Origin: Pseudomonadota bacterium
Lineage (GTDB): Bacteria > Desulfobacterota > JADFVX01
Reading direction: 5' to 3'
Length of the DNA stretch: 32,861 nucleotides
Assembly (NCBI GenBank): GCA_015222755.1
Contig: JADFVX010000002.1
Span: forward strand, 1 to 32,861
Shown: positions 8,435 to 11,639 of the stretch, in pieces
Layout of the letters: each line of letters opens with the position of its first letter
How positions within the stretch are numbered: the stretch's first letter is position 1
The notes under the pieces: model-generated
What the model saw: only the letters and a program-made list of their open reading frames with translations
Told to the model about the DNA's origin: nothing
Databases searched by the model: none
Program-made: the position numbers and the translations under genes

Positions 8435-8707
8435 TTAATTAACTGCGTCTTTAAGTGCCTTGCCGCCCTTAAATTTAGGGACTTTTCTTGCCTTAATCTG
8501 GATGGTTGCCCCAGTCTGAGGATTTCTTCCTGTCCTGGCTGCCCTTTGAGAGACAGAGAAGGTACCGAAACCAACAAGACTGACGCTTTCACCTTTGGCC
8601 AATGCACCTGATACACTTCCTGTAAAAGCCTTTAGTGCCGCACCTGCCTCCTTCTTTGATATACCTGCATCTTCTGCAATCTTTGTTACGAGTTCATCTT
8701 TAGTCAC
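8435..8707 (-). CDS. HU/IHF family DNA-binding protein (GTG start)
   Basis: '[21 protein letters not shown]...[44 protein letters not shown]'; RBS AAGGAGG. Confidence 0.97.
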
Positions 8708-9142
8708 GTCTTACCTCCTTTAATGATTTTTATTTCTATTAACGATTTTATAAAAACTAATGGATGTAGCAACAATCCATTTTGTTATTTTTGCGACTCG
8801 TACAGTTCTTTTACATTTTTTAGAAAGCTGTGACTGTATAGATAGTCAACTACGCCCACAACCTATCAAGATTAAGTCAATAAATCAATACTCAAAAAGG
8901 TGTATTTTGGGGTAGATATTTTGAGGTAGGCATTTAATGTTTTCTTGGAAATTTATCAGATGATCTCTGCCAAGCAAAAATTACGGATGACAGAGCTTAA
9001 TTCTGCAATCCTCACAGATCCACAAGAGGAAGCTAAACAAGCCAATACTCCCCCTCCCCTTACAGATTTTTGACAGGCTGCTGAGGCATATTTCATTAAG
9101 GCGGAAAACGAAAAAAACGCAACAAAAACAACACTTAGAGTT

Positions 9143-9165
9143 TTATGCACAAAAACTGTGGATAA
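9143..9165. promoter_or_regulatory. Inverted pair of perfect DnaA boxes
   Basis: TTATGCACA (9143-9151) and TGTGGATAA (9157-9165). Confidence 0.75.
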
Positions 9166-9353
9166 ACTGTGTCCAAAAAAATCTACATCTGGCCTTAAAG
9201 CCTTACAAAGCTGGGCGTAGAGCAAATTGCCTATTTTTTAGGCACATAACAAGGGACAATTTGCCCTTACTTTTCATGAACTTACAGACTATGCCATTTG
9301 CCAAACTTGTCTCTTTAAATTTTTTCATAACATTTTCATTTCTTGGCACATTT

Positions 9354-9386
9354 TTATCCACAGCCACATGTGGCATCTGTGGATAA
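9354..9386. promoter_or_regulatory. Inverted pair of perfect DnaA boxes around a 10-bp palindrome
   Basis: TTATCCACAG (9354-9363), CCACATGTGG (9364-9373), CTGTGGATAA (9377-9386). Confidence 0.75.
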
Positions 9387-9470
9387 GCGACCTTTCTTCC
9401 ACTATTCTAAGGGTTTTTGGAATATAACGGCAAAGCATGTTTTTGACAATTCCCATTCTCTCATCCAAAT

Positions 9471-9499
9471 AAAAAAAGGACCGGTAAAAACCGGCCCTT
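9471..9499 (-). terminator. Rho-independent terminator for the 9647-11639 transcript
   Basis: GG-CCGGT / ACCGG-CC hairpin followed on the - strand by T7 (a-tract 9471-9477). Confidence 0.75.
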
Positions 9500-9646
9500 C
9501 TCGCTCTATACAAAAGAAATCCCTTGGCATAAAACGGCCCATCTTAAATATCACCAGGGGAAAAGCTCTTTTTTTCTTCCGGAGAGTTGAGGAAAGTTCT
9601 TATTACAAACGCCCTGCCAGCCCTCCTCTTTTTGATTTTTAAGCAC

Positions 9647-10060
9647 CTAGTAGGAAGCAGCCAGGACTCTCTCTTTGTCCTCAAAGATAATTGTCACCTT
9701 CTTTTCAAAAACTTCCAGCACAACTCCCCTGCCAAAGCTCACATGCAAAACGATATCGCCTTTATTGTATGACCCGGACATCTCATAGGGAATGTCTTGC
9801 CCCTTGGCCTTAAAAACAGCCTCCTCCCAACGTCTCTCAGGGCTCTTGACCGGAGTGGCTCTCTTGGCTGTAGAGGTCCCCTTCTTTATCGTGGCCCTCT
9901 TTTTTGTCCTGTCCCTGTAATTGTGCTCGCTCCCGCAGGTTCGGCATTTGACCCTGACAATCTTATCTTCTATCATCGCAACAATAGTATGACTAAGATC
10001 CATCTTGCACTTGGTGCAGTAACAGACTGTGTTTTCCCCTGCAGCCGACTTACTTTTCAT
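9647..10060 (-). CDS. Zinc-ribbon protein with C-terminal Tudor-like (UvrD/PcrA C-terminus-like) domain
   Basis: CTKC-x20-CRTC at N-term; 'YNKGDIVLHVSFGRGVVLEVFEKKVTIIFEDKERVL' at C-term. Confidence 0.6.
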   Translation of the reverse strand: MKSKSAAGENTVCYCTKCKMDLSHTIVAMIEDKIVRVKCRTCGSEHNYRDRTKKRATIKKGTSTAKRATPVKSPERRWEEAVFKAKGQDIPYEMSGSYNKGDIVLHVSFGRGVVLEVFEKKVTIIFEDKERVLAASY

Positions 10061-10106: not shown

Positions 10107-11639
10107 CTAAAATGCTAACTTGTCGTCAGCAACGTGGTAGCGCGGGTCTTCCATAATATTGACCTCCACAAGGTCTCCCGCCTTACTCAGTAACTTTCTG
10201 CACTCTGGGCTCAGGTGGCGAAGCCTGAGAGTCTTGCCCGCCTTTGTGTAACGCTCTGCCAGTGAATCAATGGCCTCAATAGCAGAATGATCTGCTACGC
10301 GTGAACGGGCAAAGTCTACAATCACTTCATCAGGATCTTCCTTCGGGTCAAATATTTCATTAAAACGGTGGATGGATGCGAAAAAGAGAGGGCCATCGAG
10401 CATATAAATCTTTGCACCCCCAAGGTCGGCATGGGTTTCAGCATGAATCTGTTTTGCATGATTCCAGGCATATACAAGGGCTGAGACAATGACACCGACA
10501 ACAACGGCAATGGCAAGATCGGTGACAACGGTCACAACTGCGACAAGGATGACAACAAAGAAATCTTCAGAGGGGACACGTTTCATCAACCTGAAAGAGC
10601 CCCATTCAAACGTTCCCAGTACGACCATAAACATCACGCCCACAAGTGCTGCAACGGGGATCATTTCAATAAGTGAGGAGCCGAAAAGAATAAAACTAAG
10701 GAGAAAGAGCGCCGCTGAAATTCCCGACAGGTTTCGCTGACCGCCTGAGCTGATATTGATCATACTCTGACCGATCATTGCACAGCCCCCCATGCCGCTA
10801 AAAAAGCCGGTTACGACATTTGCCGCCCCCTGTCCGAGGCAAACCCGATTACCCTGGCCGCGAGTTTCGGTCATTTCATCAATAACGGTCATCGTAAGCA
10901 GTGATTCTATCAGGCCGATGGCCGCGAGAATTATCGAGTAGGGAAAGATGATTTTAATTGTATCAATGTTAAATGGAACCTGAGGGATATGAAAGGGTGG
11001 AAATCCACCACCGATTTTAGCAATGTCGCCGACCGATTTTGTATCGAGCCCGCCAAAAATAACTATCAGCGAAATACTAAGAATGGCTATCAGTCCGGCA
11101 GGCAGGGCGCGCGTAAATTTGGGCAGAAAATGCATAACAGACATCGTCCCAAAAACCAGTGCCAGCATGAGCCCTAACTGTGCAGACGGCATCCATGCAA
11201 GGCTGCCATCGGCAAGTGTCACCTTAAACTGAGGAATCTGGGCCAGAAAAATAACAATGGCCAAACCGTTCACAAAGCCCAGCATGACGGGATAGGGAAC
11301 CATACGTATAAACTTTCCAAGCTTTAAAAGACCTGCCGCGATTTGCAAAGCACCCATTAAAACTACGGTGGCAAACAGATATTCCACACCATGCCTTGCA
11401 ACAAGGCTCACCATTACAACGGCCAATGCGCCCGTAGCGCCGGAAATCATTCCAGGCCTTCCGCCCACAATCGCCGAGATCAAACCAACCATGAAGGCAG
11501 CATAAAGGCCTGTCAGGGGATGCACCCCCGCCACAAATGAAAAGGCCACAGCCTCCGGCACCAGTGCCAGCGCTACCGTTAAACCTGAAAGAACATCATC
11601 TTTGGCACGCGCAGCATGCCTGTAATAAAGCGCAAACAT
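10107..11639 (-). CDS. SulP family anion transporter with STAS domain
   Basis: 'ALALVPEAVAFSFVAGVHPLTGLYAAFMVGLISAIVGGRPGMISGATGA' SulP signature; C-terminal STAS-like 'VIVDFARSRVADHSAIEAIDSL'. Confidence 0.95.
   Translation of the reverse strand: MFALYYRHAARAKDDVLSGLTVALALVPEAVAFSFVAGVHPLTGLYAAFMVGLISAIVGGRPGMISGATGALAVVMVSLVARHGVEYLFATVVLMGALQIAAGLLKLGKFIRMVPYPVMLGFVNGLAIVIFLAQIPQFKVTLADGSLAWMPSAQLGLMLALVFGTMSVMHFLPKFTRALPAGLIAILSISLIVIFGGLDTKSVGDIAKIGGGFPPFHIPQVPFNIDTIKIIFPYSIILAAIGLIESLLTMTVIDEMTETRGQGNRVCLGQGAANVVTGFFSGMGGCAMIGQSMINISSGGQRNLSGISAALFLLSFILFGSSLIEMIPVAALVGVMFMVVLGTFEWGSFRLMKRVPSEDFFVVILVAVVTVVTDLAIAVVVGVIVSALVYAWNHAKQIHAETHADLGGAKIYMLDGPLFFASIHRFNEIFDPKEDPDEVIVDFARSRVADHSAIEAIDSLAERYTKAGKTLRLRHLSPECRKLLSKAGDLVEVNIMEDPRYHVADDKLAF

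Follow-up and report, generated by a model that had tools for sequence, protein, structure and literature searches.

A strictly spaced non-coding DnaA-box element present in two copies per genome: a candidate DnaA-control site in a family of Desulfobacterota

Introduction

The sequence TTATNCACA is the high-affinity DnaA box, and its clustering in intergenic DNA is typical of the chromosomal replication origin oriC. DnaA-control loci of fixed architecture have been described mainly from Escherichia coli and its relatives, from which datA and DARS are known. The loci datA, DARS1 and DARS2 are short non-coding box clusters away from oriC; in E. coli their boxes and spacings are kept, and the function of datA is sensitive to the spacing (PMC4585315). 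Titration of DnaA on the chromosome has been described for E. coli (PMC12371093). Putative double oriCs, i.e. two DnaA-box clusters per genome, have been listed for some bacterial chromosomes; these adjoin dnaA, parB or hemE, at skew minima where stated, and a survey of 2015 found no evidence for two functional origins used on one bacterial chromosome (PMC4403523).

The element described here lies in a window of 32,861 nucleotides, i.e. the whole stretch of DNA that was analysed, from the draft genome of a bacterium of the Desulfobacterota (1.90 Mb, termed G000). Like datA and DARS, it is a short non-coding cluster of boxes distant from dnaA in which boxes and spacing are conserved, but blastn detected no sequence similarity in 5,426 E. 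coli genomes, its box numbers and arrangement are different, and it occurs in two near-equivalent copies and has its own central inverted repeat, the control activity being putative. As in the putative double oriCs, there are two DnaA-box clusters per genome, but they do not adjoin dnaA, parB or hemE, nor do they appear to lie at skew minima. With bacterial oriCs it has in common the high-affinity TTATCCACA boxes, a neighbouring AT-rich stretch and the intergenic position, while the two copies per genome, the absence of origin genes and of a DnaA-trio run, and a skew that does not look origin-like set it apart.

Results

Architecture of the element

A preliminary description of the window had proposed a candidate replication origin or DnaA-titration locus at 8708-9470. 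This was based on four perfect TTATNCACA boxes; the window has no others, and their positions and strands are as given there (9143-9151, plus; 9157-9165, minus; 9354-9362, plus; 9378-9386, minus), and the surrounding gap without credible genes is equally real, as 8708-9646 contains only unconvincing open reading frames. The boxes form two inverted pairs, one with a spacing of 14 (starts at 9143 and 9157, TTATGCACA-N5-TGTGGATAA, hereafter pair-14) and one with a spacing of 24 (starts at 9354 and 9378, TTATCCACA-N15-TGTGGATAA, pair-24); the first box thus reads TTATGCACA and the other three TTATCCACA. The box count per se is weakly unusual (at least four boxes in 4 of 100 dinucleotide shuffles), and the motif is hardly enriched genome-wide, with 54 boxes in 1.90 Mb versus 43 for the reversed control. 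From these 54 boxes, about 3e-6 groups of four within 244 bp are expected, and the clustering is therefore not due to chance.

The extent needed correction, as the element proper spans about 9059-9500 (plus strand) with a core at 9143-9386. These limits are those of the stretch shared with a second copy, which lies on contig C45 (window 9105-9499 versus C45:10772-11169, 401 blastn columns with 77% identity), the shared CTTACAGATTTT(T)GACAG at 9059 having been recognized by eye. Just ahead of the first box, an ACTTA (9133-9137, plus) is invariant in all copies, and a central inverted repeat, TTGCCTA-TTTTT-TAGGCAC, occupies 9227-9245. The one-mismatch box noted at 9238-9246, TTAGGCACA, is present, but it is probably no DnaA box because it is part of the right arm of this repeat. 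The AT-rich tract also exists, starting at 9313 and not at 9312, and the element's least stable, DUE-like stretch lies at 9303-9343 beside pair-24, in the bottom 0.8% of sampled sequence (nearest-neighbour helix stability, 40-step, ranked against sampled sequence).

The adjacent HU-family gene (8435-8707, minus; Bac_DNA_binding, Pfam PF00216, E 1.5e-35), which had been named in the preliminary description, is an incidental neighbour, as the other three copies adjoin glnE, argS and tatD. On the other side, a gene for a small protein (9647-10060, minus; no Pfam match) is transcribed towards the element. Two tandem 14-bp copies of TATTTTGRGGTAGR lie at 8903-8930, in the gap on the HU-gene side of the element. 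The window indeed contains no dnaA, and parAB is absent from it as well.

Four copies in two genera

In a blastn search of G000 against itself, only two copies of the element were found, plus a terminator-like 30-mer on contig C56. The second copy, on C45, lies between rpe and glnE, is 77% identical over about 400 bp, and its boxes at 10810, 11022 and 11046 in the genome-wide box list show the spacings of the window copy (contig C116). Among 59 genomes searched, a match was obtained only in G001, the sole other genome of the family, which belongs to a different genus and also has two copies, one upstream of argS (G001-C20) and one between metG and tatD (G001-C108). When pair-24 was allowed up to 2 mismatches, G000 had the two sites only, and G001 had, besides its two perfect sites, two that are weak and imperfect and for which no second box pair was found.

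The preliminary description had named conservation of boxes and spacing in relatives as a check, and the layout is indeed kept in the four copies from two genera: all have pair-14, about 188 bp (186-190), and pair-24, together with ACTTA, AAACTGT and the central inverted repeat TTGCYTR..YAGGCA, which starts 83-85 bp past the start of the first box. Both boxes of pair-24 are identical in all four copies, and the spacing of 14 to the second box is constant, while the first box reads TTATACACA, TTTTCCACA and TTGTCCACA in the other three. The helix stability minimum, as computed, is at +160 to +184 in every copy and falls into the bottom 0.4-0.8% of sampled sequence. The G001 form of the central repeat is TTGCYTR-N5-YAGGCAA, and in 831 kb of sampled contigs an exact TTGCYTR N3-6 YARGCAA was found only at the two G001 elements. 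The spacings are kept even though identity between the genera is only 46-52%. Since the copies within a genome are closer to each other (78% in G000, 57% in G001), they either emerged independently in the two genera or are subject to concerted evolution. The boxes vary without compensation across the pairs, and the pairs therefore look like protein sites and not like RNA stems; a structured RNA was rejected, as there was no Rfam match and the box changes break the would-be stems. Binding of the element by DnaA, the replication initiator, is almost certain. The DnaA sequence contains a canonical-looking REL..S..EIG..FGGKDHSTV, which we take to be the box-reading region.

Both copies lie in ordinary housekeeping surroundings. 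The C45 and G001-C108 copies have two neighbour genes within 10 kb in common (response-regulator-like and sigma-like), and this location may therefore be ancestral. With regard to the synteny of rpe-glnE and metG-tatD, the G001 contig ends in glnE, and tatD is missing from the G000 assembly. In G000, argS follows rho and has no element copy, whereas argS of G001 has one.

The exact layout was not found in 393 other genomes of the phylum, of which only two have a lone pair-24. In another family of the phylum, a lone TTATCCACA-N15-TGTGGATAA with a near-box inside was seen some 50-60 bp upstream of a TPR-protein gene, with no pair-14 beside it (G014 C54:182188-182220; L045 1501-1533). A GTDB-wide scan of 84,980 genomes with a looser version of the layout yielded 36 loci, many of which are multi-box clusters in Ktedonobacteria and Firmicutes; apart from G001, the exact layout is not among them, and the N15-bearing loci of the remaining genomes are clusters of another kind, in most of which the pair encloses an additional box. 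No match to the element was found in viral contigs, phages and plasmids, and an integrase or phage site was rejected on these grounds.

Origin-related features

The dnaA-dnaN genes are on contig C5 in G000 and on C23 in G001, and parAB is on C18 in G000. A better box cluster near dnaA, which according to the preliminary description would have argued against the locus, was looked for in both genomes, and nothing comparable exists: no perfect box lies beside dnaA in either genome, and upstream of dnaA there is one weak TTTTCCACA in G000 and no box within one mismatch in G001. Clusters of at least three perfect boxes within 500 bp are formed only by the elements in either genome, and in a search for weighted box clusters in 1.2 Mb of G000, sampled in stretches (about 63% of the genome), the two elements were by far the best. 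No parS within 2 mismatches was detected in the same 1.2 Mb or in the sampled G001 contigs, and no run of at least four DnaA-trios lies beside the boxes of the four copies. A cluster at C16:23916 was rejected as oriC because it is inside a coding region, and so was the skew minimum near 40 kb on C60, where there is no box cluster. No oriC candidate other than the elements was found, and both genomes must possess one.

Strand asymmetry

Skew was measured on the draft contigs as keto excess at 4-fold degenerate sites, a measure adopted once GC and AT skew had been inspected, and 72 contigs were tested. As expected for the leading strand, more coding sites are on the keto-rich strand (41,868 versus 29,757 in G000; 14,346 versus 6,609 in G001). 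At C45, C116 and G001-C20 the keto skew flips towards fork convergence and not divergence (gene-resampling p = 0.008, 0.012 and 0.021, respectively). The plus-to-minus flip of C45 occurs at the element and outranks the best convergent position of every other contig (0/71), and C116 and G001-C20 also rank high; G001-C108 shows no flip. Three of the four copies thus show a skew of converging polarity, which is suggestive only, since skew flips also occur in several other G000 contigs and the keto measure was chosen post hoc. An inversion by recombination between the copies was rejected as the cause, because it predicts opposite flips in element orientation, and both are plus to minus. Diverging keto flips without a DnaA-box cluster were seen in G000 on C60 near 40 kb, C18 near 33 kb and C31 near 13 kb, and the genome has numerous short skew domains, as would be expected from rearrangement.

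Discussion

We propose, with a probability of roughly 0.4, that the locus is one of two family-specific, non-coding DnaA-binding copies that may serve as a DnaA-control or titration site like datA or DARS, and not as the main origin. This functional assignment is put forward as a hypothesis, to which oriC is a close rival. The exactly two copies per genus, the fixed spacings, the uncompensated box changes, the housekeeping surroundings and the convergent keto skew are counted in its favour, as are the canonical-looking box-reading region of DnaA, the parallel to the kept boxes and spacings of datA and DARS, and a second, short Hda/DnaA-like protein with a partial Bac_DnaA match in both genomes (L035 5983-6672; L091). 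Against it stand the lack of any other oriC candidate, the origin-like AT-rich dip beside pair-24, the lack of a sequence match to E. coli and of a consistent IHF site, and the skew test, which is weak because of the flips in other contigs and which gave no flip at G001-C108.

Mechanistically, DnaA would occupy both box pairs, and the 188-bp spacer would probably be bent by an HU/IHF-type protein or by one acting at the central repeat, so that the two DnaA pairs could touch. As for IHF sites, the spacers hold one-mismatch matches only, at places that differ between the copies, and one perfect match lies inside pair-24 of G001-C108. The resulting complex might sequester DnaA or alter its nucleotide state, and passing replication forks, by duplicating both loci, would retune the next initiation.

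What alternatives exist for such a control element? One or both copies could well be oriC, if with less probability, in which case DnaA would load on the pairs and open the AT-rich stretch by pair-24, and the second copy would be a spare or a duplicated titrating origin. This reading is favoured by the fact that the two elements are the best box clusters in the sampled 1.2 Mb of G000 and that none exists beside dnaA, and the four boxes in 244 bp with a DUE-like dip, judged by computed stability and found at the same place in all copies, have the appearance of an origin. An origin is, however, expected once per chromosome and near replication genes, whereas there are two copies per genome, none of which adjoins dnaA, dnaN or parAB, and the lack of parS in the sampled parts and of a DnaA-trio run as well as the convergent skew at three copies also argue against it. 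Two chromosomes may be the reason for the two copies. Of the two proposals made in the preliminary description, an oriC away from dnaA or a datA-like sink, the common part, that DnaA is bound at a locus remote from dnaA, is well supported by the layout kept in four copies from two genera and by the lack of a comparable cluster beside dnaA. An oriC is not established in view of the two copies, the convergent skew and the failure to find parS or a DnaA-trio; the titration reading fits somewhat better.

The convergent skew could also indicate a terminus-linked site where forks meet and where DnaA or another protein reads the boxes, as C45 has the strongest convergent flip of the 72 contigs at the element. 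This appears improbable, since two sites per genome would require two replicons or a rearrangement, G001-C108 lacks the flip, and no dif-like site lies near the elements in the sampled contigs, where the closest candidates differ at 3 positions and seem to be random. Equally improbable is a non-coding mobile or satellite element of the MITE type, whose DnaA boxes would be signals for its own replication. The greater similarity of copies within a genome, and the argS copy of G001 that is missing at argS of G000, would agree with mobility, but there are two copies only, no transposase and no terminal inverted repeats of at least 14 bp around either G000 copy, the spacing is strongly constrained, and phages, plasmids and viral contigs contain nothing similar.

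It seems rather unlikely, but would be of particular consequence, that on the chromosome of this family both of two equivalent and conserved elements dependent on DnaA are in use, be it as two natural origins or as a matched control pair where forks meet. A two-copy, strictly spaced element that is kept across genera in such a distant lineage would mean that DnaA-control loci arose elsewhere too, or it may offer a natural test case for paired origins.
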